Source: Labrenzia sp. PHM005
GTDB lineage: Bacteria > Pseudomonadota > Alphaproteobacteria > Rhizobiales > Stappiaceae
Length of the DNA: 64,000 nucleotides
Assembly (NCBI RefSeq): GCF_006517275.1
Contig: NZ_CP041191.1
Coordinates: 2,289,001-2,353,000, forward strand
Direction: 5' to 3'
Numbering within the stretch: the stretch's first letter is position 1; every line of letters begins with the position of its first letter. The position numbers and the translations under genes were made by a program. Under the pieces are notes generated by a model. The model had not been told where the DNA came from. It did no database searches and saw only the letters and a list, made by a program, of their open reading frames with translations. Below are positions 36,600 to 60,206 of the stretch, piece after piece.

Positions 36600-36628
36600 T
36601 TAACATTAGTAATTAACATTGTTAATTA
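36600..36628. promoter_or_regulatory. Perfect 19-bp palindrome upstream of marR (operator candidate)
   Basis: TAATTAACA-T-TGTTAATTA at 36610-36628 is a perfect dyad, and TTAACATT is repeated at 36600-36607 and 36613-36620. It ends 48 bp upstream of the MarR start. MarR proteins usually bind AT-rich 16-20-bp palindromes over their own promoter, so autoregulation of the marR-dehalogenase unit is expected. Confidence 0.6.
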
Positions 36629-36676: not shown

Positions 36677-37126
36677 ATGTCCGGCGAATACACACTGCAC
36701 AAACGTATCGGCTTCAAAGTCACCCGTTTGGCGCGGATCATGGAAACCCGTCTGGAATCGCAATTGACCGAACACGGAGTGACGCGGTTGATGTGGTGCG
36801 CTCTTCGGGGGATCGGAATGGAAAACGTTACCACTCCCTCCCAATTGGCGGACTACATCTGCATTACCCGGCCGGCCATCTCACGGCTGCTCAATACCAT
36901 GGAAGAACGTGGATTGGTTCGGCGCACCGGGATCGACGATGACAAGCGTTTCACTGAAGTGGATTTAACCGAATTGGGGACGGAGAAAATGAAGCTCTGC
37001 CACGTTCTGGTGCGTGAGTTGAACGATCACTTCTCGAGCAAAGTGGGTCAGGACAGCTACGAGCTGTTCATGACAGTGATCGACCAAATGACTGAGGGCG
37101 AGAACATCCAGCTGATGCGGCTTTGA
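36677..37126 (+). CDS. MarR-family transcriptional regulator
   Basis: A 149-residue winged-helix regulator. The recognition region TPSQLADYICITRPAISRLL and the wing MEERGLVRRTGIDDDKRFTEVDLTE are clear. A strong AAGGAAGAGG ribosome-binding site precedes ATG 36677. The reductive dehalogenase unit begins 27 bp downstream on the same strand, so the two are very probably one operon. MarR members often respond to aromatic acids or phenols, which fits a halogenated aromatic inducer; that ligand is inference. Confidence 0.93.
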   Translation: MSGEYTLHKRIGFKVTRLARIMETRLESQLTEHGVTRLMWCALRGIGMENVTTPSQLADYICITRPAISRLLNTMEERGLVRRTGIDDDKRFTEVDLTELGTEKMKLCHVLVRELNDHFSSKVGQDSYELFMTVIDQMTEGENIQLMRL

Positions 37127-37153: not shown

Positions 37154-37219
37154 TTGACAAACGACGTCGTAAAACCAGGTTGCAGACAGCATCTTAAGTG
37201 CGCGTGGCAGCGCGGATGA
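37154..37219 (+). CDS. 21-codon leader reading frame coupled to the dehalogenase gene
   Basis: TTG at 37154 is preceded at 8 nt by GGGGAGGA (37138-37145), the only strong ribosome-binding site in the marR-rdh gap. It opens a frame of 21 codons whose TGA (37217-37219) overlaps the dehalogenase ATG at 37216 (ATGA). No ribosome-binding site stands before that ATG or before the in-frame GTG at 37198. This looks like a leader peptide with translational coupling. Alternatives are an N-terminal frameshift, or an extended N-terminus in another frame in the native gene. Confidence 0.45.
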   Translation: MTNDVVKPGCRQHLKCAWQRG

Positions 37220-40200
37220 AGTTGTTTTCCGATCGAAACCGGGCGCCTCATCTGGGGTCGTTCCCACTGGAGCGTTTGGCGAGAATTTCAGAACTTGCTG
37301 ACCTATCTGCATTGCCGGTTTTCAAGGGAATGAGCTTCCGGGAGAAGGCACGGCCGGAAAGCATCGTCAACGCAATGAGTGAAGCACAAGCAATGCTCGA
37401 CGCTCTGCGAGACGGTGTCATCAATGAGGCCCAGGCGGAGGTGCCCGGTGATTTGTTGGAGCGCCAGAACCATCTGAAGGCCTTTGGGTATTTCGCCGAT
37501 GCCTCGATGATGGCAACCTGCGCTCTCCGGCCGGAGATGTTGCTTGAGCACCCGTTTCGGAATTCGGACATCGGTGTTCTGGCTCACAAGTTGAAAACGA
37601 CACAGACCAAGTCTCTTGCGTCCGGGATCGATATGATCATGGCGGACTTGCGAGATGCGATGGAAGCCCCAGCGCCGGATGTTAGCAATCACAGTCATGC
37701 ATTGATAATCGCGGTACAAACGCCTCGTGAGGTCCGTTCAGGTGAACCCGGCGAAACCTGGTTGAAAGGAGCGGGCAAACACAGATCTGCCTTGCGGGCT
37801 GCGGAAGTTGCGGTAGTGCTGGCGCAGTATTTGCGCCTTCTCGGCTTCTCGGCTTGTGCACACAGTCACTCCACCAGCGATGTTGATCTGAACCGGCTGG
37901 CCGTTGCTTCGGGTCTCGCAGTTTTTAAACAGGGAGCTGTGATCGCGCCCTACATTGGGACTGAGTTTTCTCTTGCCGCTGTCACGACCGACTTTCAGAT
38001 TGCAGAAGATGCACCTCTGGCCGACCTGGACCGGCAATCTTCTTTGCGCACGCACGGTCCGGCCTGGCATTTTGGCTATCGCACAGCGAAGAGCGGGCGG
38101 ACACTCGATCCCTTCCAAAAGCGCCGGTATGTCGATGGGGCCTATCCGTTCGAAAAACTCAAAAGGGTCGATACGCCAACAACCTTCATTGACGAAGCAC
38201 GAGTTCCGCGAGTTCCCAAACGGGCAGATATGTTTGCCAGGGCTCTGTTCGGCGACATGGGCAAGAAGAACCAAGAGGGCGCGACCGGCGGTCAGTATGT
38301 CCGCAAGTCAGCCCCGTCGATGGCCCAAAGACGGGCGCTCGGTGCCTTCGTCCTTCTCCAGGACGGCGAGCATAACTCCGCGCTTGCGGATCAACACACA
38401 AATGCGCAGGAGAATGCTGAAAACCTGAAGGCTATGTCGTATTTCCTGGGTGTGGATGCAGTTGGATTGTCCCGTTGCCCGGACTGGGCCTGGTACTCCC
38501 ATGACGCGGCTGGTGCACAGATTAATCCACCTCATGACCAGGCCGTATCCATGGTGATCGATCAGGGGTTTGACACGATGGAAGGTGCGACCGGGGATGA
38601 TTGGATTGCTGTATCCCAGTCCATGCGGGCCTATTTGAGATTTTCCGTTCTTGGCAGCATCGTCGCCAAGCAGATCCGGAACCTTGGGTATCCGGCGCGC
38701 GCCCATACGGTCATGGACGGTGAAGTTCTACAGCCGCCGCTCTTGCTGCTGTCCGGTCTTGGCGAAGTCAGCCGAATTGGTGAGGTTATTCTCAATCCCT
38801 ACCTGGGACCGCGTTTGAAGTCTGGTGCCGTTACCACCACGATGCCACTTGCGCACGACAAGCCGATTTCGTTCGGATTGCAGAACTTTTGCGAGAATTG
38901 CAACAAGTGTGCCCGTGAATGCCCGTCCGGCGCGATTACCGCGGGGCCGAAGCTGATGTTCAACGGCTATGAAATCTGGAAGTCAGACAGCCAAAAGTGC
39001 ACAACCTTCCGGGTTACCAACCAGGGTGGCGCCATGTGCGGACGCTGTATGAAAACATGTCCGTGGAACCTTGAAGGCATTTTTTCGGAGGCGCCATTTC
39101 GTTGGGTCGCCATGAATGTACCGCAGGCGGCACCATATCTGGCGAAGCTGGACGACATTGCTGGAAACGGAGAACAAAACTTCGTCAAGAAATGGTGGTG
39201 GGACTTGGAGCATGCGCCTGATGGCGCTTATCGCGCGGCGAAAAAAGTCAACGTTCGGCAACTGCAAAAGGACCTGGACCTCAGATACGAGGATCAAACA
39301 CTTGCGGTTTATCCGGCTAACTTGGCACCACACCCCTGGCCATTTCCGTTTCCTATGGAGCGGGAGAAGGGGATCGAAGCTTATCAAGCACTGATAACTG
39401 CAGAACAATACAGGGCTCGATTGGAGCGAAACGAGACACAGGGCCTTGCACACGAGTACAGGATTTCGGGCGATGCGCCGGTCATTTGTGTCGAGGTGAC
39501 GGGCGTTGAAGTCATGACCGATGGCGTGACCAAATATGAGTTCTCATCGCTTGATGGCACTCCCTTGCCAAGGTGGGATGCCGGTGCCCATATCGATATC
39601 GTTGTGGCACCTGAATTTCTCCGCCAGTATTCATTGTGTGGCGATCCCGCCGATCTGAGTAAATATCAAATCGGTGTTTTGAAAGAAGAGGCCGGGCGCG
39701 GCGGATCCAGGTTGCTGCATCGGATCTTCACCAAGGGACGGAAGATTTTCATCTCTCGTCCAATCAACCATTTTCCTTTGCAGGAGACAGCGAAAAAATC
39801 CTATCTCATGGGGGGCGGGATCGGCATTACGCCAATGATCGCGATGGCAAACCGGCTCCATTCGATCGGCGGGGAGTTTGAAGTTCATTACTGCTGCAGC
39901 CGTAGGGCAGATGCGGGTTTTTTAAACGATCTTGCAACGGTTCCGTGGGCTGAGCGCGTGCAATTGCATTTCAGCGATGAAGGCACCCGCGCCGATCTGG
40001 CGGAAATCCTGAACGCTTATGCTCCTGGCGATCATGTATATTCCTGCGGCCCGGCACGCTTCATGTCGTCCGTAATGGAGGCTGCGGAGCATGCGGGTTT
40101 TCAGGAAACGGAACGCCATGTTGAATACTTCAATGTCCCAGACACGCCGGAATATGAAAACCATGCCTTCACGTTGAAACTGGCGCGAAGCGGCCGGGAA

Positions 40201-40428
40201 ATAAAAGTGCCTGCAGATCGAACAGCGGCGGAGGTGCTGGGAGAAAGCGGCATTCAAATCGACGTTAAGTGCTCTGACGGGATTTGCGGTATTTGCAAAT
40301 GCGGCCTGGTGTCTGGCGACGTTGAGCATCGTGACTTTGTGCTGTCAAAGAGCCAGCGTGAAAATACAGTCATCTTGTGCCAATCCCGCGCAGCCAAACC
40401 GGGTGATGTAATCGTGGTGGATCTTTAG
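37216..40428 (+). CDS. Self-sufficient reductive dehalogenase fused to PDR-type reductase (BhbA-like)
   Basis: A 1070-residue fusion. Residues 1 to about 690 are a cobalamin-dependent reductive dehalogenase domain with two 4Fe-4S motifs: C559-x2-C562-x2-C565-x3-C569-P and C595-x12-C608-x2-C611-x3-C615-P. Tyr427 in DWAWYSHD is a candidate catalytic proton donor. About 750-975 is a phthalate-dioxygenase-reductase-like FMN/NAD(P)H module (RQYSLCGD, GGGIGITPM, YSCGPARFM), and the C-terminus is a plant-type 2Fe-2S ferredoxin (C1019, C1024, C1027, C1055). There is no Tat signal and no rdhB anchor, so it is cytoplasmic and catabolic rather than respiratory, like BhbA of Comamonas. Expected reaction: NAD(P)H-driven removal of halide from a halogenated phenol or similar. 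The frame is open to GTG 37198. Confidence 0.93.
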   Translation: MKLFSDRNRAPHLGSFPLERLARISELADLSALPVFKGMSFREKARPESIVNAMSEAQAMLDALRDGVINEAQAEVPGDLLERQNHLKAFGYFADASMMATCALRPEMLLEHPFRNSDIGVLAHKLKTTQTKSLASGIDMIMADLRDAMEAPAPDVSNHSHALIIAVQTPREVRSGEPGETWLKGAGKHRSALRAAEVAVVLAQYLRLLGFSACAHSHSTSDVDLNRLAVASGLAVFKQGAVIAPYIGTEFSLAAVTTDFQIAEDAPLADLDRQSSLRTHGPAWHFGYRTAKSGRTLDPFQKRRYVDGAYPFEKLKRVDTPTTFIDEARVPRVPKRADMFARALFGDMGKKNQEGATGGQYVRKSAPSMAQRRALGAFVLLQDGEHNSALADQHTNAQENAENLKAMSYFLGVDAVGLSRCPDWAWYSHDAAGAQINPPHDQAVSMVIDQGFDTMEGATGDDWIAVSQSMRAYLRFSVLGSIVAKQIRNLGYPARAHTVMDGEVLQPPLLLLSGLGEVSRIGEVILNPYLGPRLKSGAVTTTMPLAHDKPISFGLQNFCENCNKCARECPSGAITAGPKLMFNGYEIWKSDSQKCTTFRVTNQGGAMCGRCMKTCPWNLEGIFSEAPFRWVAMNVPQAAPYLAKLDDIAGNGEQNFVKKWWWDLEHAPDGAYRAAKKVNVRQLQKDLDLRYEDQTLAVYPANLAPHPWPFPFPMEREKGIEAYQALITAEQYRARLERNETQGLAHEYRISGDAPVICVEVTGVEVMTDGVTKYEFSSLDGTPLPRWDAGAHIDIVVAPEFLRQYSLCGDPADLSKYQIGVLKEEAGRGGSRLLHRIFTKGRKIFISRPINHFPLQETAKKSYLMGGGIGITPMIAMANRLHSIGGEFEVHYCCSRRADAGFLNDLATVPWAERVQLHFSDEGTRADLAEILNAYAPGDHVYSCGPARFMSSVMEAAEHAGFQETERHVEYFNVPDTPEYENHAFTLKLARSGREIKVPADRTAAEVLGESGIQIDVKCSDGICGICKCGLVSGDVEHRDFVLSKSQRENTVILCQSRAAKPGDVIVVDL

Positions 40429-40466
40429 CCTCTCCGATCTGTTGGCACGAGGCGCCTTTATAAACG

Positions 40467-40495
40467 CCCCGCCGGAGCGGACAGTTCCGGCGGGG
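40467..40495. terminator. Strong terminator between convergent dehalogenase and dctM genes
   Basis: CCCCGCCGGA (40467-40476) pairs perfectly with TCCGGCGGGG (40486-40495) around a 9-nt loop, followed by TTT on the plus strand and by a weak T-rich stretch on the minus strand. It serves the dehalogenase transcript and perhaps the opposing TRAP transcript. Confidence 0.75.
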
Positions 40496-40517
40496 TTTGC
40501 TTGCCATCAACAGATCC

Positions 40518-41822
40518 CTATTGAATGCCCATAAGCATTTTCGGGAGGAAAAGGGACAGTTCCGGCAAGAAAGTTACCAGCATCACCATCGGCAGGTGGC
40601 CGAGACAAAGAAATTTGAGGGTGATGCCGATATATTTGTCGAGCGTGATCTTGCTAACACCGGCCGCCATATAAAGCATCGGCGCGCAAGGCGGAGAGAC
40701 GTTGCCGAGGCCTAGATTGGTGCCGACGATGGCTGCAAAATGGATTGGGTGGATACCAAGCTCATTGGCAACAGGCAACAAAACAACCGCGGCAAGTACG
40801 CTGCCTGAGATGTCGTCGACGATCATGCCCATCAGCAATAGAACCAGATTGATCAGCAAGAGCAGCAATATGCGGTTTTCTGATAGATCAAGCAGCAGAT
40901 CAGCAATCTGGCCGGGCACCTGTTGCAGCACCATGGACCGGCTCATCATGAACAGAAAAAACAGCACAGTGATGATCGAGCCGGTTGTGATTGCGGCCCA
41001 TTTGGTCGCCTTCCAGAAGTCCTTGAAGGACAGGCTGCGGTAAATCAGGAAACCAACCACCGTGGCATAGACCAGCGCAATGGCAGCTGCTTCTGTCGGT
41101 GTTGCTATGCCGCCGTAGATGGTGCCCAAGATGATCAGTGGCATCAAAAGTGCCCAGAACGCCTTTTTTCCGGATCGGCCAACACCGGATATGGCTTGGC
41201 CGAAGGGAAGTTTTTCCTCCACCTGAATGTCGTTGTTGTTGCGCAAGAAGAAAAAGTTAAGCGCTATATAAAGGAGCGCCAGCATGATCCCCGGGATGAT
41301 TGTCGACAGGAAGGCTGCTCCGACTGACAGGCCGCCGGTTACGGCAAAAACGATCATTGGGATTGATGGCGGGATCATCAGTGCCAGTACCGATGAGCAG
41401 GCAACCAAGGCGGTTGCATGGCCGACCGGATAACCTTCCCGAACCATCCGTGGGATCATGATCTGGCCGATGGCTGCAATCGCCGCTGACGACGATCCGG
41501 AGATCGCGCCAAACAGGGCGCAGGTGACGATGGTCACCGCGCCGAGACCTCCCTTGATCCTGCCGACAATGGAATTGACGAAATCCAGCAGCCTGTTCGA
41601 TATGCCACTTTCCGCCATAATTGTGCCTGCGAGCACAAACAGGGGAAGTGCTAGAAGGGCGAAGCTGGTGGTGGTCTGATAAGCGTAGGGGATGAGGAAC
41701 GAGATATTGCTGCCGGTGCCAATACCGAAAACCAAGGCGCCAATACCAAAAGCAAAAGCTATGGGCATTTCAGCCAAAAGCAGAACAACAATAATCAGAA
41801 GTGCAATGGCAAAGATCAGCAT
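40518..41822 (-). CDS. dctM: TRAP transporter large permease (DctM)
   Basis: A 434-residue polytopic membrane protein of the DctM family: N-terminal AEMPIAFAFGIGALVF, FGAISGSSSAAIAAIG, MIPPSIPMIVFAV and the C-terminal GLGNVSPPCAPMLYMAAG segment. The frame is open to 41933, but ATG 41822, inside the last codons of dctQ and behind GGGGAGA, gives the family N-terminus. It works with the DctQ and DctP genes upstream on the same strand and is convergent with the dehalogenase gene. Confidence 0.93.
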   Translation of the reverse strand: MLIFAIALLIIVVLLLAEMPIAFAFGIGALVFGIGTGSNISFLIPYAYQTTTSFALLALPLFVLAGTIMAESGISNRLLDFVNSIVGRIKGGLGAVTIVTCALFGAISGSSSAAIAAIGQIMIPRMVREGYPVGHATALVACSSVLALMIPPSIPMIVFAVTGGLSVGAAFLSTIIPGIMLALLYIALNFFFLRNNNDIQVEEKLPFGQAISGVGRSGKKAFWALLMPLIILGTIYGGIATPTEAAAIALVYATVVGFLIYRSLSFKDFWKATKWAAITTGSIITVLFFLFMMSRSMVLQQVPGQIADLLLDLSENRILLLLLINLVLLLMGMIVDDISGSVLAAVVLLPVANELGIHPIHFAAIVGTNLGLGNVSPPCAPMLYMAAGVSKITLDKYIGITLKFLCLGHLPMVMLVTFLPELSLFLPKMLMGIQ

Positions 41823-42466
41823 TGGACCGTCTCCCCTTCTTTCATCATTTGAAGAGCGACGTACTGGTTCACCCCCTGCATGACCAAAGCAAGTATTGTC
41901 CCGGCAAAGCCAATCACCAGAGAGAATGACCAAAGCCCCTTGGGCCAGCGCAAGTAGGAGCTGAGGCGGCCCTTCTCAATCTCGAAAAACGCATATTTTA
42001 TAGCGAAGTATCCAAACACCACGCAGGCAATGATGCTGAAGACTGTCATGATCAGTCTGACACTCTGGATGATGGCTGGATTTGTCACGACCAATGTCAG
42101 GATACCGCCGTGAATATGCTCGCCCTGCCGTGTGACATAAGCCATGGCTGGAAAATAGACCCAGGCACCGAACAACAATGCCATCTCCTCAATGCCGACA
42201 AAGGGGGAGTTGAAGCCGTAACGCAGGATCACCTGGGCAAACATCAAAACGGCCAGGGCAATCGAGAAAGCGGCCAAACCGTTTGATAGGATTGAGGCGT
42301 AGACCTTTTCGAAATTCAAAAAAGCGGCGTAGCGCTCCGAAACAGGCCCATCCGGGATTGCGGTAACATGCTCAGGTGGTTCGGGGGTTGTAAGTTCTGG
42401 GTCATATATAAAAGATGCGCCCGGTTCGACCGGATCACGCGGGTGCTGTTTTGACGTTCTATCCAT
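41816..42466 (-). CDS. dctQ: TRAP transporter small permease (DctQ)
   Basis: A 216-residue membrane protein with four predicted helices after an unusually long, hydrophilic N-terminal extension of about 45 residues. DctQ features include the GIEEMALLFGAWVYFPAMAY stretch. Start at 42466 follows GGGAGGA. The gene overlaps dctM by 7 bp and follows dctP after a terminator-like hairpin. Confidence 0.9.
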   Translation of the reverse strand: MDRTSKQHPRDPVEPGASFIYDPELTTPEPPEHVTAIPDGPVSERYAAFLNFEKVYASILSNGLAAFSIALAVLMFAQVILRYGFNSPFVGIEEMALLFGAWVYFPAMAYVTRQGEHIHGGILTLVVTNPAIIQSVRLIMTVFSIIACVVFGYFAIKYAFFEIEKGRLSSYLRWPKGLWSFSLVIGFAGTILALVMQGVNQYVALQMMKEGETVQC

Positions 42467-42488
42467 TTCGTCCTCCCTGAAATGAAAA

Positions 42489-42510
42489 GGGCCCGCACAA
42501 TCGCGGGCCC
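42489..42510 (-). terminator. Attenuating terminator between dctP and dctQ
   Basis: Read on the minus strand, GGGCCCGC pairs with GCGGGCCC around a 6-nt loop and is followed directly by TTTT. It sits 10 nt after the dctP stop and 22 nt before the dctQ start. Partial termination here would give more binding protein than permease. Confidence 0.75.
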
Positions 42511-42520
42511 ATGGCTTTTG

Positions 42521-43543
42521 TTATTCCAGACCGGCGGCCTTTTTTAGTTTGGCCATGATTTCCGGGCCGACGACTTCCTCCATCGCAGGCCATTCGGTTT
42601 CATGGACAACAGAAGCTGCAGCTGCGATTTGCGCGTCACTCAATTCAATGACTTCGATGCCGGCATCGCGGGCTTTTTGCAGAAATTCATTGCTCTTGCT
42701 TTCCGCTTCATCCCAGGACCACAGAACGGTGTCGTCGGCTGCTTTTTGCAGAGCAGTACGGTCTTCCTCGGCAAGTCCGTCCCACCAATCCTTGTTCACC
42801 AGCCAGAAGGCGGTTTCAAAGTAATCATTGGTCAGGATGTTTGTTTCCAGCACATCACGCAGATTGTAAGTCTCGACCGCAGTCGAAAAGGCGCGGGCAT
42901 CAACAGTGCCCAATTGCAGCGCGGTGTAGACTTCGGCAAGCGGGATTGGCACCGCCCCAAAACCGAGATTGTTGAAACGGTCAACAGCAATGGAGACCGG
43001 TGGTACGCGGATTTTCAGGTTTCCGCCGTCTCCCGGCAAATCCAACGGCTTGGCTCCAACGCCCTTTCTGATCACGACCGATCCGAAATCGGTGGGAATG
43101 ATGCCAATGGCATGCACATCCATGTCGTGCAGAATGTCGTTGTAGATATCGAGCATCTCGCCGCCTGGTCCATAGACCTTGCGGGCGTCTTCCCAATTGG
43201 ACACCACGTAGCCAAGCCAGGACAGGTCGAGCCGCTGATCAAATTCAGATGCGCCCCAGGTAAGGGTCATCGGTACAACGCCTTGCATGGACTGTTCAAA
43301 AAGAGAGGTCCAGTCGCCCAGATCGCCGCCGGGGTGGTAAGCAATGCGGAAATTGGAATCCTTACCTAAGGTGTCCTGGAATTTTTCCGACATAGCATGG
43401 AAGATGTGATCGGTTGTCATGGCGTGAGCGAGAATGAACCGCTCTTTTGCATCTGCTGGGGTAGGCGCATAAACAGCGGCCGCTGCAATAAACGCTGCAC
43501 CACCCAATGCGCTAAAGGCACGTCTGCTGAGTTTGTCTATCAT
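42521..43543 (-). CDS. dctP: TRAP transporter solute-binding protein with Tat-type signal
   Basis: A 340-residue DctP-family binding protein. The N-terminus has a twin-arginine motif (SRRAF at about 6-10) and an Ala-rich hydrophobic core ending PADA before KERF, which suggests export by Tat in a folded state. Mature-region marks are NLKIRVPPVSIAVDRF and PIPLAEVYTALQLGTVDARAF. ATG 43543 behind GAGGAGGAA is the start; upstream codons of the open frame look non-coding. The ligand is probably a carboxylate; the nearby aminotransferase and dehalogenase are the contextual hints. Confidence 0.9.
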   Translation of the reverse strand: MIDKLSRRAFSALGGAAFIAAAAVYAPTPADAKERFILAHAMTTDHIFHAMSEKFQDTLGKDSNFRIAYHPGGDLGDWTSLFEQSMQGVVPMTLTWGASEFDQRLDLSWLGYVVSNWEDARKVYGPGGEMLDIYNDILHDMDVHAIGIIPTDFGSVVIRKGVGAKPLDLPGDGGNLKIRVPPVSIAVDRFNNLGFGAVPIPLAEVYTALQLGTVDARAFSTAVETYNLRDVLETNILTNDYFETAFWLVNKDWWDGLAEEDRTALQKAADDTVLWSWDEAESKSNEFLQKARDAGIEVIELSDAQIAAAASVVHETEWPAMEEVVGPEIMAKLKKAAGLE

Positions 43544-43921
43544 TTCGGGTTTCCTCCTCGGATTTTTGTCCCGCCGGCGCCCTGCCGCAGGACTTTGCTT
43601 CGCTGAAGCCAGCAAAGGTCGGGGGCCGCATGCACACGTGCACGCAGCTACATTTCTCTCGTTCACCCGCTTTAGAGTTGGGCGTTGGTTTGTCTGCTGA
43701 TGGGCTAAAAAATCTGGTTTGCGGGAGCCGCCCCGATGATCGCTAAGTGATCATTTGGCTATTGGCGCTTGTCCGCGAATTGAGCAAGGGATAGTCGGAT
43801 CTTGAAAAGAGAGCTTCGTTCTTGTTCTTTAGCTCTTGCCGTTTTGGCCAAACCGGCGCAATAGCGCCGGTTTCATGCAGGTTGCCGAAGTTAGCCCAAG
43901 GCGGGCAGTCGGCCTGTGAAC
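43544..43921. promoter_or_regulatory. Spacer holding the dctPQM promoter and the aminotransferase terminator
   Basis: No credible gene. ATGATC-N6-GATCAT (about 43736-43753) is an inverted repeat upstream of dctP that could be an operator. A strong terminator for the upstream aminotransferase lies at 43850-43873. The dctP promoter should lie between the two. Confidence 0.4.
43850..43873 (-). terminator. Terminator of the aminotransferase gene
   Basis: AAACCGGCGC (43850-43859) and GCGCCGGTTT (43864-43873) are perfectly complementary around a 4-nt AATA loop (TATT on the transcribed minus strand). It ends in TTT on the minus strand about 50 nt after the aminotransferase stop. Confidence 0.75.
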
Positions 43922-45238
43922 TCATTCCAAGTCCCCTAAGATGTCGGCAAGACCGTCAAACAGGGTGTCGATTTCAGTTTCGCTGATGATCAGTGGCGGT
44001 GAAAGAGCGATGATGTCGCCGGTAACACGGACCATAAAGCCAGCGTTCCAAGCCTTTTTCATAGCGTCCATACCCCGGGCACCCGGAGCGCCATCACGCG
44101 GAGCGAGTTCTACTGCGCCGACAAGGCCAAGATTGCGGATGTCAACAATGTTCGGCAGACCGGCCAAGTCATGGATCCGCTTCTCCCATTGAGGTGCAAG
44201 TTTGGCTGCCCGCGCAAACAGGTCGTTCTTCTCATATGATTCCAGTGCCGCCAGCGCAGCTGCACAAGCCATCGGGCTGGCGGAATAGGTGTAGCCGTGG
44301 AACAACTCGATCGGGCTGTCAGCGTTTTCCATGGCGCTTTCGTAGATGTGGTTCTGCACGATTACGGCGCCCATTGGGATGACCCCATTGGTCAGTCCCT
44401 TGGCAGTCGTAATGATGTCCGGCGTGACCTCGAAATATTCTGCTGCCGTCGCTGCGCCTAGCCGGCCGAAGGCGGTTATGACTTCATCGAATATCAGCAA
44501 AATACCGTGTTTGTCGCAGATTTCCCGCAGAGCCTTGAGGTAACCAACGGGGGGCAGCAAGACCCCGGTTGATCCGGCCATCGGCTCGACGATGACTGCC
44601 GCAATGGTCGAGGGGTCGTGCAGACCTACAATTCGCTCCAGATCAAAAGCAAACTCGGCTCCGTGTTGTGGGCAGCCTTTGGAAAAAGCATTACGCTTTA
44701 GATCGTGTGTATCACGCAGATGGTCCACTCCGGTCAGAAGTGTACCAAAGTGTCTGCGATTGGAAACAATGCCGCCGACTGAAATGCCCCCAAAACCGGT
44801 GCCATGATATCCGCGTTCACGGCCAATCAAACGGGTCCGCGAACCGTCGCCACGCATTCGGTGATAGTGCAGGGCGATCTTGAGTGCGGTGTCGACTGAT
44901 TCAGAACCGGAGTTTGTAAAGAACACATGGTCCATGCCTTCCGGCATGAGACTGGCGAGTTGTGAAGAAAGCTCAAAAGCTTTGGGGTGCGAAAACTGGA
45001 AACTCGGCGCATAGTCCAGTTCAAGCGCTTGTTCTTGAATGGCTTTGGTGACGAATGGATCCTTGTGACCGGCGTTAACACACCAAAGTCCAGCAGTTGC
45101 ATCCATCACCTTATGTCCTTCGGTGCTGGTGTAATACATGCCTTCTGCGGATTTGATCAGCCGTGGGTTATTTTGAAAATCACGGTTGGCCGTGAACGGC
45201 ATCCAGAACGATTCCATGGTGTTGGTTCTCTGCAGCAT
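43922..45238 (-). CDS. Class III omega-amino acid:pyruvate aminotransferase
   Basis: A 438-residue PLP aminotransferase of subgroup II/class III, most like beta-alanine:pyruvate or omega-amino-acid transaminases. The PLP lysine is K280 in TTAKGLTNGVIPMG; the phosphate-cup FFTNSGSESVDTALK and the Asp of LLIFDEVITAFGR are present. ATG 45238 is fixed by GGAGGAG 5 nt upstream. It is divergent from an XRE-cupin regulator and ends in a strong terminator before the TRAP operon, so it is a separate transcript. Likely role: deamination of an imported amine or omega-amino acid to an aldehyde or oxo-acid. Confidence 0.92.
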   Translation of the reverse strand: MLQRTNTMESFWMPFTANRDFQNNPRLIKSAEGMYYTSTEGHKVMDATAGLWCVNAGHKDPFVTKAIQEQALELDYAPSFQFSHPKAFELSSQLASLMPEGMDHVFFTNSGSESVDTALKIALHYHRMRGDGSRTRLIGRERGYHGTGFGGISVGGIVSNRRHFGTLLTGVDHLRDTHDLKRNAFSKGCPQHGAEFAFDLERIVGLHDPSTIAAVIVEPMAGSTGVLLPPVGYLKALREICDKHGILLIFDEVITAFGRLGAATAAEYFEVTPDIITTAKGLTNGVIPMGAVIVQNHIYESAMENADSPIELFHGYTYSASPMACAAALAALESYEKNDLFARAAKLAPQWEKRIHDLAGLPNIVDIRNLGLVGAVELAPRDGAPGARGMDAMKKAWNAGFMVRVTGDIIALSPPLIISETEIDTLFDGLADILGDLE

Positions 45239-45334
45239 CGTGGCTCCTCCGTCAAAATGTGCAGCTGTTCGATGCCCAATAGTTCCACACGCTTTGGTGG
45301 TTCGTCACTCCAGATTCTTGAGAAAGTTTAACGT

Positions 45335-45347
45335 ATTGAAAAACAAT
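45335..45347. promoter_or_regulatory. Small dyad in the aminotransferase/XRE-cupin spacer
   Basis: ATTG-A5-CAAT (45335-45347) is a 4-bp inverted repeat 26 bp before the regulator's start and about 97 bp before the aminotransferase start. It may be the operator of the XRE-cupin protein, but such short dyads occur by chance. Confidence 0.2.
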
Positions 45348-45373
45348 GCACCCTTGCTTAAAGTGCTTTCGAT

Positions 45374-45943
45374 ATGAAGCAGAAAAGCGAAAAATCTGAT
45401 TTCGAGACAGCCAAACGTTTGCGAGTGATCCGAACCGCAAAGGGGCTCAGTCAGCGCAAGCTAGCCAAACTGTCAGGTGTTGGAAGCGGCACTATCTCGT
45501 TGATCGAGTCGGGTGCAACACAGCCTTCTGTGGCTCTCCTGAAAAAGATCCTTGGGGGGATCGATGTTAATCTGGGATTTTTCTTCTCCTTCGAAATGCG
45601 GGATGAAGAAAAGGTCTTTTTTACAAAGAAAGATCACCGCAATCTTGGGACGGCTGGAGTTGCCTACCGACTGATTGCCAGTGAGCGCCAGAACCGTAAG
45701 ATCCAGATGCTGCTGGAGGAATACAAGCCGGGCACGGATTCTGGTCGGGCATCCCTTTCTCATGAAGGTGAAGAGTGCGGCGTTGTGATCTCAGGCCATT
45801 TGAAAGTTACAGTCGATGGCCGCTCGCAAATCCTTGGGCCTGGGGATGCGTACTACTTTGACAGTCGGCTGCCGCACCGTTTTCAGAATACCGAAGGCGA
45901 GCCATGCAAGGTGGTCAGTGCCTGCACACCGTCAACATTCTGA
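45374..45943 (+). CDS. XRE-family regulator with cupin domain (PuuR-like)
   Basis: A 189-residue regulator: XRE helix-turn-helix (about 12-66; RLRVIRTAKGLSQRKLAKLSG, TISLIESGATQPS) and a C-terminal cupin (about 110-185; HEGEECGVVISGHLKVTV, GDAYYFDSRLPHRF). The layout matches PuuR, which senses putrescine and controls amine catabolism. It faces a class III aminotransferase, so amine- or amino-acid-responsive control of that gene is likely. The ligand is not known. Confidence 0.88.
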   Translation: MKQKSEKSDFETAKRLRVIRTAKGLSQRKLAKLSGVGSGTISLIESGATQPSVALLKKILGGIDVNLGFFFSFEMRDEEKVFFTKKDHRNLGTAGVAYRLIASERQNRKIQMLLEEYKPGTDSGRASLSHEGEECGVVISGHLKVTVDGRSQILGPGDAYYFDSRLPHRFQNTEGEPCKVVSACTPSTF

Positions 45944-52780: not shown

Positions 52781-54280
52781 CTACGCCAGATCCATCGGCA
52801 ACAACGCATCTGGCATGTTCTGATAGCAGACCGGGCGCAGGAAACGCCGGATCGACAAGGTGCCCACAGATGTAGCGCCAAAGTTTGTCGAGGCTGGATA
52901 GGGGCCTCCATGAACCATCGTATCAGCAACTTCAACGCCCGTCGGGAAGCCGTTGACCAGAAGGCGTCCAGCCTTGCGCTCTAGAACAGGCACGAGCGAT
53001 TGCGCAGCATCGGTGTCTTCCGCATCAAGAACAAGCGTACAGGTTAACTGCCCCTCAAGTGATTTGGCGATGGCAAGACGCTCAGCCTCGTTCTGCACGG
53101 TCACAATCAAACCTAGTGGTCCAAAGACTTCGTGCATTAGCGCCTTGTTGGCGAGAAGTCCGCTTGCCGTTGTGCGCAACAGTACGGGTCCGGCGTTGCG
53201 GCCTTTACAATTGGCGCAGAACACGCTGGTTGCGACTTCGCTCATGGTAGCGGTTCCATTGTGAAACGCACTTGCAATACCGTCCGTCAGCATGGCTTGC
53301 GGTCCAATTTTGGCAAGGTTCTCAGCAGCCGTTGCTACAAAAGATTCCGCGTCCGGTCCTTCCTTAAGGATCAAGATGCCGGGGTTGGTGCAGAACTGGC
53401 CGGCACCCATCGTGAGCGACCCTGCCCAACCGGCCGCAATCTCGGTCCCTCGGTTTTGCAATGCATGATCCAGCAAAAAGACCGGATTAACGGATCCCAG
53501 TTCACCAAAGAACGGAATGGGTTCCGGCCTGCTGGCGCACAGATCAAAAAGAGTGCGGCCTCCACCGAGCGAGCCAGTAAAGCCGACAGCCTTGATCAGG
53601 GGATGCTGGACAAGGGCCGTGCCGACCGCCCGGTTGCCGCCCTGGACCTGACTGAATACGCCCGGGTGCACATCGCATTGCCGGATGGCTGCCAAGACGG
53701 CCTGAGCAACGATGTCACTGACACCGGGATGGGCCGAGTGACCTTTGACCACAACTGGACAGCCTGCGGCCAGAGCCGCTGCCGTATCTCCGCCCGCAGT
53801 CGAGAAGGCGAGCGGGAAATTCGACGCGCCAAAAACGGCGACCGGGCCGATTGGTCTTTGAACCATTTTCAGGTCGGGACGCGGTAATGGCAGGCGGTCT
53901 GGCAATGCGACATCATGGCGGCGGTCTAGGTATTCTCCAGCTTCAATGTGATTGGCAAACAAACGTAGCTGCCCGACAGTCCGGCCCCGTTCACCGATTA
54001 ACCGGGCTTCCGGCAGCCCGGTTTCCCTCGTGCCGATTGCCGTGATGTCGTTACCGCGAGCATCGATATGGTCGGCGATTGCGTTCAAGAGCTCTGCCCG
54101 GCTTTCGCGGGAACTGTAGCCAAAGCTCCAGAAGGCGTCTTCCGCAGCCTCCACCGCAGCGGCCACATGCTCGGGAGTGCCGACCGAAAACCGGTCAACG
54201 TTTCCTGATACCGGCGCGTTTTCAAATGTGTCGTCGCCTGCGACCCAATCACCTGCAACAAGGTGTTTTCCAATAAACAT
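52781..54280 (-). CDS. Aldehyde dehydrogenase, 2,5-dioxovalerate/alpha-ketoglutaric semialdehyde type
   Basis: A 499-residue NAD(P)+-dependent aldehyde dehydrogenase. VFGASNFPLAFSTAGGDTAA, PIPFFGELGSVNPVFLL (general-base Glu) and GAGQFCTNPG (catalytic Cys) match the alpha-ketoglutaric semialdehyde dehydrogenase branch, used in pentose, uronate and hydroxyproline breakdown. ATG 54280 is used rather than the preceding TTG. As the last gene of the TTT operon it probably oxidises the aldehyde released by the TPP enzyme. The exact aldehyde is not readable from sequence. Confidence 0.9.
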   Translation of the reverse strand: MFIGKHLVAGDWVAGDDTFENAPVSGNVDRFSVGTPEHVAAAVEAAEDAFWSFGYSSRESRAELLNAIADHIDARGNDITAIGTRETGLPEARLIGERGRTVGQLRLFANHIEAGEYLDRRHDVALPDRLPLPRPDLKMVQRPIGPVAVFGASNFPLAFSTAGGDTAAALAAGCPVVVKGHSAHPGVSDIVAQAVLAAIRQCDVHPGVFSQVQGGNRAVGTALVQHPLIKAVGFTGSLGGGRTLFDLCASRPEPIPFFGELGSVNPVFLLDHALQNRGTEIAAGWAGSLTMGAGQFCTNPGILILKEGPDAESFVATAAENLAKIGPQAMLTDGIASAFHNGTATMSEVATSVFCANCKGRNAGPVLLRTTASGLLANKALMHEVFGPLGLIVTVQNEAERLAIAKSLEGQLTCTLVLDAEDTDAAQSLVPVLERKAGRLLVNGFPTGVEVADTMVHGGPYPASTNFGATSVGTLSIRRFLRPVCYQNMPDALLPMDLA

Positions 54281-54313
54281 CAAACTGACTCTGTCCTGTT
54301 TGGGCTTTCGCCG

Positions 54314-54943
54314 TTAACCTGCAGGGATCTCGCCCATGACTTTCGGCACGTGGTAGCCCTTTTGGACCGCAGGGCGTTCAAGAACGCGTTTGTACCAGGC
54401 TTGGACATTCGGGAATTCAGCTAGGTTGATCTGCTGCCACTCATAGCGGGAAATCCACGGCCAACAGGCCATATCGGCGATAGAGTAGTCGTCGACAATG
54501 TAGTCGCGGCCTTCCAGGCGCTTGTCCAAAACTCCGTAAAGTCGCCGGACTTCCGTGCGAAAGCGGTCTTCGGCGTATTCGGCTTTACCGGGATTGAAAT
54601 GAAGGTAGTGATGCGCCTGGCCCAGCATTGGCCCAAGACCGCCCATTTGCCACATCAGCCACTCGATGGTGCGTGTCCGTTGTTCGCCATCGGCTGCGAG
54701 AAACTTGCCATATTTGTCTGCCAGGTAAATCATGATGGCCCCGGATTCCATAAGCTGTAGACCGTTGTCCTGGTCAACAATCGCTGGGATCTTGTTGTTC
54801 GGACTGATTTCCAGAAACTCCGGTGTTTTCTGGTCACCCTGACCGATGTTGATCGGATGAGCGTTGTAGTCGATACCCAGTTCCTCAAGAAGAATGGAGA
54901 CTTTCCGGCCGTTCGGTGTGGTCCAGGTGTAGAGATCGATCAC
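54314..54943 (-). CDS. Nu-class glutathione S-transferase (YfcG/YghU-like)
   Basis: A 209-residue GST with an N-terminal thioredoxin fold (IDLYTWTTPNGRKVSILLEE, NNKIPAI, MESGAIMIYLA) and helical C-terminal domain (MGGLGPMLGQAHHY, YSIADMACWPWI). These motifs match E. coli YfcG, which has disulfide reductase activity and binds two glutathiones. GTG 54943 with GGAG 8 nt upstream is the start; the frame is open further but the extra part is non-coding in character. Its role in this operon may be a glutathione-dependent isomerisation, cleavage or detoxification step. Confidence 0.9.
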   Translation of the reverse strand: MIDLYTWTTPNGRKVSILLEELGIDYNAHPINIGQGDQKTPEFLEISPNNKIPAIVDQDNGLQLMESGAIMIYLADKYGKFLAADGEQRTRTIEWLMWQMGGLGPMLGQAHHYLHFNPGKAEYAEDRFRTEVRRLYGVLDKRLEGRDYIVDDYSIADMACWPWISRYEWQQINLAEFPNVQAWYKRVLERPAVQKGYHVPKVMGEIPAG

Positions 54944-54981
54944 GAGTATACTCCGCGTGTCTGATTTGAGTGTTGTTCGGG

Positions 54982-55335
54982 TCAGCCGTTGTTTGCAGCC
55001 ATGTCCAGTGCCGGATTGTCCTGAGCCCACGGACTGAAAGGGGCCGGGATCAGGATCTTGTTTTCCTGACTGATCTGAAATTTCCGGGTCTTGATCGCAT
55101 ATTCTTTCCAGCGGGGATCGGCCGTCAATTTTGCGCGGCGTTCCGACCGCTCCGCCAGATCCTTGTAAGCCCACATGTGAATGATCTGGTGCAGCTGGCC
55201 GATATCGGTTGAGAAATAACCTACCATGCGCCCCAGGACCGGTCGCTGAATGGCAAGGCCTTCTTCTTCGTAGAGCTTGAGGTAATCAGGTACAGCACCG
55301 ATGTTGAGCGTGTAGGTGCGTTGTTCGACAATCAT
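54982..55335 (-). CDS. NIPSNAP-family protein
   Basis: A 117-residue protein of the NIPSNAP family, a dimeric alpha/beta-barrel ferredoxin-like fold (MIVEQRTYTLNIGAVPDYLKLYEEEG at the start, HQIIHMWAYKDLAERSERRAKL in the middle). Bacterial members commonly sit in catabolic operons and have no settled biochemical role. Start 55335 has AAGGATG upstream. It lies between the TPP enzyme and GST genes. Confidence 0.88.
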   Translation of the reverse strand: MIVEQRTYTLNIGAVPDYLKLYEEEGLAIQRPVLGRMVGYFSTDIGQLHQIIHMWAYKDLAERSERRAKLTADPRWKEYAIKTRKFQISQENKILIPAPFSPWAQDNPALDMAANNG

Positions 55336-55371
55336 TTGGTTTTCATCCTTCTTCCCGAAACTGCAGGGCGG

Positions 55372-57096
55372 TTAATGAGCCAGCGCAGCTTCGCCTTGTC
55401 TGCGGGCATCGCTCAAAGACTGGCTTGGTGTCAGTGCTTCCGGATCGACGACGATTTCGATCAGGTACCCGCCTTTGGATGTTCGCGCCCGGGCCAAGGC
55501 TGCCGGGAAGGCCTCCGTGTCCGTAATCCGTTCCCCTTCAATTCCGAATGCTCTTGCGTAGGTGACGAAGTCCGGGTTGACCAACTCGGTCGCAATTACA
55601 TGACCGGGGTGGTTGCGTTCCTGGTGCATCCGAATGGTGCCGAACATGCCATTGTTGACAACGATGTAGATGACGTCGGCGCCATATTGTTTGGCGGTGG
55701 CCAATTCCTGGCCTGCCATCATGAAACATCCGTCACCGGCGAAACTTATGACTTCCCGCGCGGGGGCGATCAGCTTGGCCGCAATCGCTGAAGGTTGGCT
55801 ATAGCCCATGGATCCACTGGTCGGGGCCAGTTGGGTGCGGTAATCGGCGTGCTGGTGGAACCGGTGGACCCAGACAGTGTAGTTTCCCGCACCATTGGCA
55901 ACGATTGTATCCGGCGGCATAGTCTCGGTCACGTGCCGGATAACATCGGCCATGTTGACTTTGCCTGGAACCGTGGTGGGCTCGATAAAACTGCGATAGT
56001 CGGCGTTTTGGTCTTTACGCCAATCCGCCCAGCGGCTTGCACAATCCGCTGGCTCCAACTTGAGAGCGGCATCAAGAAATGCTTCCGCAGAAGAGACGAT
56101 CGACAGCTCCGGTGCATAGACCTGACCAAGTTCTTCCGCGCCCGGATGAATGTGAACCAGCTTCATTTGTGGAGTTGGGATATCAAGCAAGGTGTAGCCT
56201 TGCGTGGTCATCTCCCCAAATCGCGGTCCGATTGCGATCATGAGATCAGCTTCTTCCATGACCCGCTTGCGCAACTTGGGTGACGGGGCAATTCCGATAA
56301 CTCCAACATAGTTTTCGTGGCTATTGTCGAAATAGTCCTGACACCGGAAGGATGCCGCTACCGGAAGGCCAAACCTTTCAGACAAGGCAATGGCCTTGTC
56401 GCAACACGCCTTGTTCCAGCCAGGGCCGCCGACAACCAGCAACGGCTTTTTTGCGGCCTGGAGCATCTTCTCCAGATCGGCCATCGCAGACGGCTGAGGG
56501 GCTGCCACGGGAAGAGGCGTTGGTTTTAGGTCAACAGTTGCGACCTCCTCGGTTAGCATGTCTTCTGGCAAGGCGAGGACAACGGGCCCAGGCCGACCGG
56601 AAAGTGCCACCTTCCAAGCGCGGGACAGATACTCGGGAATGCGCCGTGCATCGTCGATCTGGGCAACCCACTTGGCCATCTCGCCAAACATGCGCCGGTA
56701 GTCCATTTCCTGGAAGGCTTCACGGTCCATCATCTCCCGTCCGACCTGCCCGACAAGAACAATCATCGGTGTAGAATCCTGATAAGCAGTGTGAACTCCG
56801 TTGGAGGCGTTTGTTGCGCCTGGACCGCGGGTTACAGCGACAATGCCGGGTTTGCCGGTCATCTTGCCATAGGCGTCCGCCATGTTTGCAGCACCAGACT
56901 CGTGCCGGCAGGTGATGACTTGCACGTCGTTCTGATGTGCGTACAAGCCTTCCAGCAGGCCCAGAAAACTCTCGCCTGGAACACAAAAGATCTTGTCCGC
57001 ACCCAACAAGGCGAGCTGGTCGGCAAGTATGCGTCCTCCGCTGCGCAGAGGCATCGCAGCATCGGCAAGCGTTTTGTTTTCCAGTGCTTTGGACAT
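55372..57096 (-). CDS. Thiamine-diphosphate-dependent enzyme (acetolactate synthase large-subunit-like)
   Basis: A 574-residue ThDP enzyme with the three-domain AHAS/decarboxylase fold. The catalytic Glu is in CRHESGAANMADAYGK; the ThDP/Mg motif GDGCFMMAGQELATAK...IVVNN is near the C-terminus. No ilvN-type regulatory subunit is adjacent, and the catabolic context argues against branched-chain synthesis. More likely it decarboxylates or cleaves an imported oxo-acid to an aldehyde for the aldehyde dehydrogenase. It lacks features that would let me call Xsc, oxalyl-CoA decarboxylase or Gcl. Start 57096 has GGGGGA upstream. Confidence 0.88.
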   Translation of the reverse strand: MSKALENKTLADAAMPLRSGGRILADQLALLGADKIFCVPGESFLGLLEGLYAHQNDVQVITCRHESGAANMADAYGKMTGKPGIVAVTRGPGATNASNGVHTAYQDSTPMIVLVGQVGREMMDREAFQEMDYRRMFGEMAKWVAQIDDARRIPEYLSRAWKVALSGRPGPVVLALPEDMLTEEVATVDLKPTPLPVAAPQPSAMADLEKMLQAAKKPLLVVGGPGWNKACCDKAIALSERFGLPVAASFRCQDYFDNSHENYVGVIGIAPSPKLRKRVMEEADLMIAIGPRFGEMTTQGYTLLDIPTPQMKLVHIHPGAEELGQVYAPELSIVSSAEAFLDAALKLEPADCASRWADWRKDQNADYRSFIEPTTVPGKVNMADVIRHVTETMPPDTIVANGAGNYTVWVHRFHQHADYRTQLAPTSGSMGYSQPSAIAAKLIAPAREVISFAGDGCFMMAGQELATAKQYGADVIYIVVNNGMFGTIRMHQERNHPGHVIATELVNPDFVTYARAFGIEGERITDTEAFPAALARARTSKGGYLIEIVVDPEALTPSQSLSDARRQGEAALAH

Positions 57097-57113
57097 GTCG
57101 TCCCCCAGTTCCG

Positions 57114-57899
57114 TTAGATGCTTTTGATCATGCCGCCGTCGACGCGGGTCATTTGTCCGGTCACATACCCGGCCGGGTCGCTCAATAAGAACGCTGCAAC
57201 GCTGGCAAACTCCTCCGGCCGGCCATAGCGTTTTGCCGGCAGGGAAGCTGCGATTTCGGTGCGAACTTGATCCAAGGTCTTGCCTTCACGATCGGCGCGT
57301 GCTGTGTCCAGCTGACCAACACGGTCGGTATCAATCTTGCCTGGAAGGATCATGTTGACTGTGATTCCGTCGCCAGCGACCTCAGCCGACAAGGTCTTGC
57401 AAAAACCGGCCATTGCACCTCGAATTGTGTTGGAGACGGCCAGATTGGGGATAGGCTGGATGACGCCGGACGAACCGATTGCAAGAATACGGCCCCACTT
57501 GCGTTCCTTCATCGAGGATACAGCTGCTTCGGTGATCTGAAACAGGCTGAACAGAAGCATTTGAGCAGACCGTTGCCAGATGTCACCGGACACTCCGAGA
57601 GATGGAGACGGCGGAGGTCCACCAGCATTGTTCAACAGGATATCAGGTTTGATTTCATTGCTGACCCTAGCGCAGAAACTGTTGACTGCATCAGAGTCCG
57701 AGAAGTCAACTGCGATGGGGGAAGCGGAAACGCCGTACTTTTCCGACAGCTCGGCAGCTAGGGCCTGCAACTTGTCTGCGCTGCGGGCCGTTAGTATGAC
57801 GTTGGCACCTTCTTCAGCCAGCTTCTCGGCAATGGCGCGGCCGAGCCCTTGGGAAGCCCCAAGAACCAGTGCGGTCTTGCCGCGGATACCCAAATCCAT
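57114..57899 (-). CDS. SDR-family protein lacking the canonical Tyr-x3-Lys
   Basis: A 261-residue short-chain dehydrogenase/reductase fold. GASQGLG (14-20) binds the cofactor and NNAGGPPP (90-97) follows. The catalytic Ser (S143/S144) is present, but the positions expected for Tyr and Lys are S156 and R160 (AVSNTIRGAMAG). This SN-x2-R variant occurs in a known FabG-like subgroup, so the change is not a sequencing error by itself, but the mechanism must differ from ordinary SDRs. Start 57899 has AGGAG upstream. It lies 17 bp before the TPP gene. Confidence 0.88.
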   Translation of the reverse strand: MDLGIRGKTALVLGASQGLGRAIAEKLAEEGANVILTARSADKLQALAAELSEKYGVSASPIAVDFSDSDAVNSFCARVSNEIKPDILLNNAGGPPPSPSLGVSGDIWQRSAQMLLFSLFQITEAAVSSMKERKWGRILAIGSSGVIQPIPNLAVSNTIRGAMAGFCKTLSAEVAGDGITVNMILPGKIDTDRVGQLDTARADREGKTLDQVRTEIAASLPAKRYGRPEEFASVAAFLLSDPAGYVTGQMTRVDGGMIKSI

Positions 57900-57921
57900 G
57901 AGGTTGTACTCCTGATAGAAT

Positions 57922-59601: not shown

Positions 59602-59605
59602 GGCG

Positions 59606-60091
59606 TCAGTAAACCCTCAGAATTTCGCCTTCCGGCAGCAATACGCCGAGCAATTGAGTGAAGATCGCCCACATGCCGACCACGAAAAACAGCGAGATGG
59701 CAGCGTGAAGAGCAAGTTGTTTGGGTTTCCAGCCGCCGAGCACATTCAAAGTGAGGAACACGTAGACCAGGCCGCCCAGCAACATGCCGGCAACCGGCAT
59801 TGAAACCAGGAATAAAGAGAAGAGTGAAAAGCAGATGATCGGATTACGATTATGATCCCACAAACCGCGCAGGCTTGATTTTTCCTCAGCTTTCGTGTCC
59901 ACCACGCCCCGTTGCGACTGGACCAGAAGCAAAGCTGAGAGCAGGGTCAGGGGCACCAGAATGATGCGGGGCCACAATGCTGGGGACATCTGCCCGAACA
60001 TAGCTTCCGGCAGATTCATGGATGCAATGAACATCACGGCGCAAAGCAGCAGAAAGAAGACCGCAACGAAGGTGTCTCGGTTGAGTGTCAT
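59606..60091 (-). CDS. tctB: Tripartite tricarboxylate transporter small permease (TctB)
   Basis: A 161-residue membrane protein with four predicted helices, the TctB subunit of the TTT system. It starts at 60091 with a weak ribosome-binding site and ends 4 bp before tctA. The gap to tctC is 115 bp and contains a hairpin. Confidence 0.88.
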   Translation of the reverse strand: MTLNRDTFVAVFFLLLCAVMFIASMNLPEAMFGQMSPALWPRIILVPLTLLSALLLVQSQRGVVDTKAEEKSSLRGLWDHNRNPIICFSLFSLFLVSMPVAGMLLGGLVYVFLTLNVLGGWKPKQLALHAAISLFFVVGMWAIFTQLLGVLLPEGEILRVY

Positions 60092-60127
60092 ACCGGGTAT
60101 CCAGGATGATTGGGACCAGGAGCCGAA

Positions 60128-60156
60128 GGACCACGACCTTGATATTGACGTGGCCC
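60128..60156 (-). terminator. Intercistronic hairpin between tctC and tctB
   Basis: GGACCACG (60128-60135) pairs with CGTGGCCC (60149-60156), eight pairs with one G-U, around a 13-nt loop, about 50 nt after the tctC stop on the minus strand. It fits the pattern of hairpins after binding-protein genes in this window. Confidence 0.45.
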
Positions 60157-60206
60157 ACCGACATTTCAGGAAAAGACTTGATAGTGTTGTTTCAAGTCCA
60201 ACCTAG

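Follow-up and report, generated by a model that had tools for sequence, protein, structure and literature searches.

The genome of Labrenzia sp. PHM005 carries, within the 64,000 nt stretch that we analysed (contig NZ_CP041191.1, positions 2,289,001 to 2,353,000; hereafter the window), a gene predicted to encode a single-chain catabolic reductive dehalogenase of 1070 amino acids. We consider it highly probable (roughly 0.9) that the product of this gene, rdhA (37216..40428, plus strand), is a soluble enzyme of the kind represented by JtRdhA, which would remove bromine or iodine ortho to the hydroxyl group of halophenols, deliver its product to PobA and the pca pathway, and be expressed under the control of a MarR-family regulator. 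This kind of enzyme is already known and RdhA is another member of it, with a mechanism that has been described before. Nor can the system be called novel, since the purification and assay of JtRdhA date from 2023 and Alphaproteobacteria encode many full-length relatives. The new element is a modest one, namely a conserved arrangement of a MarR gene, an operator-like block, a TRAP transporter and rdhA, of which the window genome retains the regulator, the block and the enzyme.

The rdhA frame is open without interruption from an ATG at 37216 to the stop codon at 40428 (1070 codons). An automatic listing of open reading frames (ORFs) places the start at a GTG at 37198, 18 bases or six residues earlier, but the ATG is preferred because a relative with 97% identity (P0001) begins at the same ATG. 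The sequence, domain order and residue identities of the protein were read directly, as were the genes around rdhA and the presence of the pathway genes described below. The first 4Fe-4S motif, CENCNKCARECP (38890..38925, plus strand; residues 559-570), has the form C559xxC562xxC565xxxC569P, and the second (38998..39063, plus strand; residues 595-616) reads C595-x12-C608xxC611xxxC615P and contains Arg599, the equivalent of Arg552 in NpRdhA of Nitratireductor pacificus. Further along the chain are RQYSL at residue 803, GGIGITPM at 867, CGP at 944 and the 2Fe-2S cysteines C1019, C1024, C1027 and C1055. An earlier, sequence-only reading of this DNA had listed CxxCxxCxxxCP, C-x12-CxxCxxxCP, RQYSLC, GGIGITPM, CGP and a 2Fe-2S site, and every one of these motifs was found. 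The eight 4Fe-4S and four 2Fe-2S cysteines are unchanged in all 224 rows of a MAFFT alignment comprising the window protein, 103 locus rows and 120 database proteins; these rows are redundant and were all picked as close relatives, with the window's own duplicates (L001 and L099) and loci lacking a 900-column match left out.

Profile and structure comparisons divide the chain into a dehalogenase and a reductase. The domain matches lie well outside what chance would give. The reductive dehalogenase model TIGR02486 matches RdhA with 189.7 bits (cut-off 160.35; E = 1.1e-55). A Pfam scan returned Fer2 (PF00111, E = 3.1e-10) and two 4Fe-4S models over cut-off and listed no dehalogenase model at E <= 0.001, and the dehalogenase assignment therefore rests on TIGR02486 and on matches in the PDB. 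The profile search proposed in the sequence-only reading as a check thus came out positive for both TIGR02486 and Fer2. The best PDB matches are the NpRdhA chains 6zxu (E = 4e-155) and 4ras (E = 5.5e-155), which cover the first two thirds of RdhA, while the last third matches phthalate dioxygenase reductase (PDR; 2pia, E = 2.7e-55) and two self-sufficient P450s (6kbh and 6laa) in their reductase parts. Residues 6-113 and 164 onward, in the numbering from the GTG, align with the NpRdhA chains, which carry a vestigial duplicate of the cobalamin domain. It is by this alignment to 4ras and 6zxu, and not by comparison of the duplicate with RdhA's own core, that we place such a duplicate at 37693..38370 (plus strand, approximately residues 160-385); its vestigial character is taken from the accessible part of PMC10463259. 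The catalytic core, which would hold the corrinoid and two 4Fe-4S clusters, follows at 38371..39129 (plus strand, approximately residues 386-638; TIGR02486 and NpRdhA alignment), the edges of both regions being approximate. The PDR-type flavin and NAD(P)H reductase domain (39490..40140, plus strand, about residues 759-975) and the C-terminal 2Fe-2S ferredoxin domain (40177..40425, plus strand, about residues 988-1070) are supported by sequence, profile search and fold comparison. Elsewhere in the same genome, about 6 kb beyond the end of the window (L002), a PDR-type reductase is encoded on its own and shares 34% identity with the reductase part of RdhA.

The protein is predicted to be cytoplasmic. 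The first 60 residues contain no RR pair of a twin-arginine translocation (Tat) signal, and nothing in the chain resembles a transmembrane stretch (highest 19-residue Kyte-Doolittle mean, 1.4). The genes flanking rdhA encode MarR on one side and a convergent TRAP transporter on the other, and neither resembles rdhB; no search for rdhB was made in the remainder of the genome. The Tat signal and RdhB membrane anchor of respiratory dehalogenases are thus not seen, and the chain does not end after the core as in the NpRdhA type, because PDR and Fer2 domains follow in the same polypeptide. The combination of core, two 4Fe-4S motifs, Tyr-Lys-Arg set, vestigial duplicate, PDR and 2Fe-2S domains, with neither Tat signal nor neighbouring RdhB, places RdhA in the self-sufficient JtRdhA/BhbA type. 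In these respects the sequence-only reading, which had described a self-sufficient enzyme without Tat signal or rdhB anchor, proved sound.

Its further designation of the enzyme as BhbA-type holds for the architecture, but the nearest characterised enzyme is JtRdhA. A protein of Jhaorihella thermophila (P0073) is 68% identical to RdhA over 99% of the query; we take it to be JtRdhA from its organism and name, the accession in the paper (WP_104007082) not having been matched to it. According to the accessible text of PMC10463259, on which all statements about the activity of JtRdhA rely, the enzyme is a self-sufficient NADPH-dependent debrominase and deiodinase that contains, per protein, 0.4 cobalamin, 0.53 flavin mononucleotide (FMN) and about 9.4 irons, oxidises NADPH in a coupled 1:1 ratio to debromination and is active both with and without air. 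Its substrates are brominated and iodinated ortho-phenols. JtRdhA comes from another genus, but it resembles RdhA over the full length, in domain order, and in cluster and catalytic residues. BhbA, encoded on plasmid pBHB of Comamonas sp. 7D-2 (L087) in the vicinity of ligA and of a gene for a class III extradiol dioxygenase, shares the RdhA-PDR-ferredoxin architecture and the catalytic set but is more distant (48.5% identity). NpRdhA shares the core and N-terminal domain and lacks the reductase and ferredoxin part. A fourth enzyme, Ros_A3X954 of Roseobacter sp. MED193, is like RdhA by published description only, as a marine alphaproteobacterial catabolic debrominase without a Tat signal; the accessible part of the same report (PMC13101508) also describes putative bhbA homologues as widespread in the Roseobacter clade. 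To the few self-sufficient dehalogenases that have been assayed, RdhA adds a well-conserved Roseibium branch.

To compare active sites, eleven pocket positions of NpRdhA (accessible parts of PMC7565698 and PMC10463259) were mapped by hand through the PDB-search alignment and read from the 224-row alignment. The equivalents of Phe291, Ser422, Met423, Tyr426, Lys488 and Arg552 are invariant in all 224 rows. Among them, Tyr473 (38632..38634, plus strand) corresponds to Tyr426, for which the accessible text of PMC7565698 gives the role of proton donor, and Lys535 (38818..38820, plus strand) aligns with Lys488 in comparisons with NpRdhA and relatives. The Tyr and Lys/Arg partners anticipated from sequence therefore align, although the residue then called Tyr427 is Tyr426 in NpRdhA numbering and Tyr473 here. 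The five remaining positions (Met339, Tyr361, Val362, Val466 and Val499) each differ from NpRdhA, and Val466 stands in place of Ala419, part of the pocket for a second bromine. P0073 matches RdhA at 11 of 11 positions, including the catalytic set, whereas BhbA and a protein of Nitratireductor OM-1 differ at four, with Phe, Ser, Ser and Ala for residues 339, 361, 466 and 499. This pattern leads us to predict a substrate range like that of JtRdhA rather than that of BhbA. In our best model, the substrates would be phenols resembling halo-4-hydroxybenzoates, carrying a bromine or iodine substituent in the ortho position to the hydroxyl, encountered in the cytoplasm.

The genome provides an oxidative route for 4-hydroxybenzoate via pobA and pcaHG. 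One cluster contains pobA (690.9 bits), pcaH, pcaG, pcaD, pcaQ and a 3-oxoadipate:acetyl-CoA acetyltransferase gene, all over their cut-offs, together with a pcaB-like gene that stays under its own (302.6 versus 355.75). HpaD, the only gene of the homoprotocatechuate route that was tested, gave no match over cut-off, the best score in the genome being 35.2 bits against a required 321.4, which makes the use of 3-bromo-4-hydroxyphenylacetate via that route less likely. The only cobalamin gene tested, cobN, is over its cut-off. CobN belongs to the oxygen-compatible route of cobalamin synthesis, and the cell can therefore probably make its own cobalamin by that route. Together pobA, pcaHG and cobN support the likely aerobic life of the host that had been suggested from sequence, a support that falls short of proof.

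The gene neighbourhoods of relatives bear on the choice of substrate. A genome contig search found an RdhA relative encoded in 288 of 346 candidate stretches, of which the best 80 were kept. In 7 of 81 loci, an ORF belonging to one cluster of similar sequences is found no more than 6 kb downstream of rdhA (median distance 10 bases); the member in L048 is a pobA over cut-off, and the other six were assigned as pobA-type by similarity only. A pobA-type gene also lies near rdhA on the Nitratireductor OM-1 plasmid. These neighbours, and the high rate at which JtRdhA converts acids of this kind, point weakly to halo-4-hydroxybenzoates. Alternatively, RdhA may act mainly on free bromo- and iodophenols, in detoxification of natural marine halophenols rather than in supplying the pca pathway. 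JtRdhA turns over 2-iodophenol and 2,4,6-triiodophenol at 71.6% and 65.5% of its maximum rate and also accepts 2,6-dibromophenol, on which Ros_A3X954 is active as well (PMC13101508, accessible part), and rdhA is not linked to pobA in the window genome. However, 2,6-dibromophenol is the slowest of the ten tabulated substrates of JtRdhA (6.8%) and the three fastest are acids, and the pobA-type neighbours just described argue in the same direction. We regard this alternative as less likely than not.

A main role in the dechlorination of chlorinated phenols is very unlikely. One relative (P0015) is named a 3-chloro-4-hydroxyphenylacetate reductive dehalogenase precursor, which is a database name only, and NpRdhA reduces chlorinated compounds according to the accessible text of PMC10463259; the same text, however, reports that JtRdhA, which has the same letters as RdhA at the eleven pocket positions, did not convert any of the chlorinated compounds tested and was inhibited by them. 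That RdhA is instead a QueG epoxyqueuosine reductase fused to a reductase, a finding that would have refuted the sequence-only reading, is suggested by the relatedness of these corrinoid enzymes and a weak match to TIGR00276, but is effectively refuted by sequence, since that match (26.1 bits) falls far under its cut-off of 200 while TIGR02486 exceeds its own, NpRdhA matches as given above, and the substrate-binding residues of RdhA are conserved.

For the preferred JtRdhA-like enzyme, the comparisons suggest the following course of reaction. NAD(P)H would pass a hydride to the flavin in the PDR module, from which single electrons would travel by way of the C-terminal 2Fe-2S cluster and the two 4Fe-4S clusters to a base-off cobalamin. 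An ortho-bromo- or ortho-iodophenol would bind so that the halogen sits on cobalt while Lys535, Arg599 and Ser469 hold the hydroxyl. Tyr473 would donate the proton, and halide would be released. The product, probably 4-hydroxybenzoate or a similar phenol, would then be oxidised through PobA and protocatechuate 3,4-dioxygenase. We infer this activity, together with the cofactors, the substrate and any oxygen tolerance, from the relatives.

The MarR-family regulator gene (36677..37126, plus strand; domain scan and locus comparison) lies directly upstream of rdhA, at a distance of 89 bases, and is its conserved partner in the genus. In all 11 genus loci compared (L100-L110, the best-scoring of 18 other rdhA-bearing genus genomes, with the 7 lower-scoring ones left out), a MarR gene 67-77% identical to that of the window adjoins rdhA upstream. 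On its far side from rdhA, each of these loci has a divergent gene for a TRAP substrate-binding protein, whose identity to its L007 counterpart is 78-100% across the matched part (263-304 of 338 residues). Judged by their contig coordinates, L100, L101, L106 and L107 coincide with L007, L008, L009 and L010, and counts from the two sets are therefore not additive. The same MarR-TRAP-rdhA arrangement is present in L111, from another family of the order, at identities of 59% and 77%. Among the 80 related loci, 5 have a MarR match (tblastn E <= 1e-20) and 11 a DctM relative, which in two cases is only 38-40% identical; these counts are lower bounds, as some contigs stop near rdhA. The TRAP linkage recurs beyond the genus, with MarR too on an Aminobacter plasmid. 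The full module, comprising divergent TRAP importer, operator-like block, MarR gene and rdhA, is thus centred on Roseibium, and the TRAP linkage is wider.

Alignment of the regions upstream of marR revealed the block TTAACNTNRNTAATTANCANTGTTAA, common to the window, the 11 genus loci and L111. In the window it lies at 36600..36625 (plus strand) and overlaps a promoter-like site of marR, TTAACA-18-AATTAT, although such sites are no commoner than in shuffled sequence. The search pattern was derived from these upstream regions and matches there by construction. It occurs once in the 64-kb window and in none of 100 shuffles at <=1 mismatch, and once each in 18 of 124 fetched loci, every one of them a MarR-rdhA locus; these 18 count the window twice and include four duplicates. 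In L111 the exact match is found only on the strand opposite its MarR gene, because the block is nearly palindromic. The pattern was not found in the more distant MarR-bearing loci L077, L090 and L091. The window has the block without the divergent importer, which fits a site serving marR and rdhA themselves. We therefore regard it as a candidate operator, through which MarR probably keeps marR and rdhA repressed as long as no (halo)phenolic ligand is bound. Tentatively, and at slightly less than even odds, aerobic reductive debromination in Roseibium may be organized as a dedicated MarR-controlled module of transport and catalysis, in which a halophenol-sensing MarR acts through the shared block on a divergent importer of halo-aromatic acids and on the dehalogenase; the window would hold a reduced form whose substrate enters by another route. 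Such a regulator-operator-importer arrangement offers a concrete, testable case for marine bromine cycling under oxygen. In the accessible texts of the literature searched, a reductive dehalogenase, MarR and a TRAP transporter are mentioned together in a single paper, on Dehalococcoidia.

Several observations weigh against the assignment of RdhA to a JtRdhA-like route into the pca pathway. The predicted structure has NpRdhA as its top-ranked fold match but is weak in the catalytic core (mean predicted local distance difference test score 64.4, with residues 550-638 below 50). Absence of the cobalamin-binding fold, which the sequence-only reading had named as a refutation, is countered by the alignment with the cobalamin enzyme NpRdhA over the first two thirds of the chain. 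Ros_A3X954 was reported to be highly oxygen-sensitive (PMC13101508, accessible part), and oxygen tolerance need therefore not hold for RdhA. The pobA/pca cluster is about 850 kb away from rdhA, which makes the link a metabolic and not a positional one, and 74 of the 81 loci have no pobA-type neighbour in the flank covered. Finally, the dedicated TRAP importer of the genus relatives is absent at the window locus, its place being taken by a ROK regulator and a sugar ABC cluster. The closest DctP of the window genome is only 31% identical to that of the module, so no orthologue was found, and substrate uptake is therefore unexplained. A DctP homologue in the stretch with the pca cluster (30-31%, E = 1.3e-37) was considered as a link but not used, as another site is nearly equal (28%, E = 2.8e-37).

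Relatives of RdhA are abundant. A protein search gave 3901 matches among 8000 scored candidates; for the best 120 of these, the alignment extends over at least 98% of the query, with identities of 66-97%. A tree was built from 92 of the 224 rows by a quick method with a midpoint root, and it carries a long-branch warning for Aminobacter and OM-1. In this tree RdhA pairs with P0001, named Roseibium sp. (support 100), within a clade of 10 rows named Roseibium or Maritalea (support 100), and BhbA and OM-1 form a separate branch. Presence across the genus is patchy, with a match (E <= 1e-100) in 19 of 45 one-per-species genomes, own included; in the order it is 26 of 397, a count that includes the own genome, NpRdhA-type and partial matches. 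Matches of any extent were present in 1124 plasmid records; in 8 of these, the BhbA plasmid included, they span at least 80% of the query. No paper that names both a reductive dehalogenase and Roseibium was found in the literature searched, outside which most subscription papers lie.

Downstream of rdhA, a hairpin predicted to be stable (40466..40496) may act as a terminator; it folds well but is absent from the list of a terminator scan, whose two listed sites are below the shuffle mean of 4.6. Beyond it lies the convergent TRAP transporter DctM, DctQ and DctP (40518..43666, minus strand), which was considered as an importer for RdhA and is probably unrelated to it. Its DctP (E <= 1e-90) is found in one of 45 genus genomes, the own, whereas 18 others have rdhA. 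In the class it occurs (E <= 1e-110) in 3 of 385 genomes, own included, with up to five candidates scored per genome, and the other two have no rdhA at E <= 1e-40 in a search made without a positive control. Its relatives occur widely, with 256 proteins at E <= 1e-100, and the best 120 of these include Ruegeria, Halomonas and one Roseibium protein at 69%. A similar TRAP set (DctM 91%, DctP 86% and DctQ 81% identical) in Ruegeria atlantica L028, located 5.2 kb downstream from an rdhA, at first suggested a link, but there it adjoins an alanine dehydrogenase gene. Given this likeness and its rarity in the genus, the transporter was possibly acquired horizontally. Beside it, at 43922-45943, are genes for an omega-aminotransferase AptA (over the NCBIfam cut-off) and a divergent PuuR-like regulator (under cut-off), which may be the functional partner of the transporter.

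Elsewhere in the window, the region 52781-61190 encodes a TctA-type tripartite transporter, an SDR protein, a thiamine pyrophosphate (TPP) enzyme, a glutathione transferase and an aldehyde dehydrogenase, and may be a separate catabolic cluster. The aldehyde dehydrogenase and TPP enzyme (52781-57096) were considered as counterparts of genes on the BhbA plasmid, but no match was found at 35% identity and 60% coverage and the best NCBIfam models of the two TPP enzymes differ, so the idea was dropped. A long ORF of 1965 codons occupies 11388-17285.

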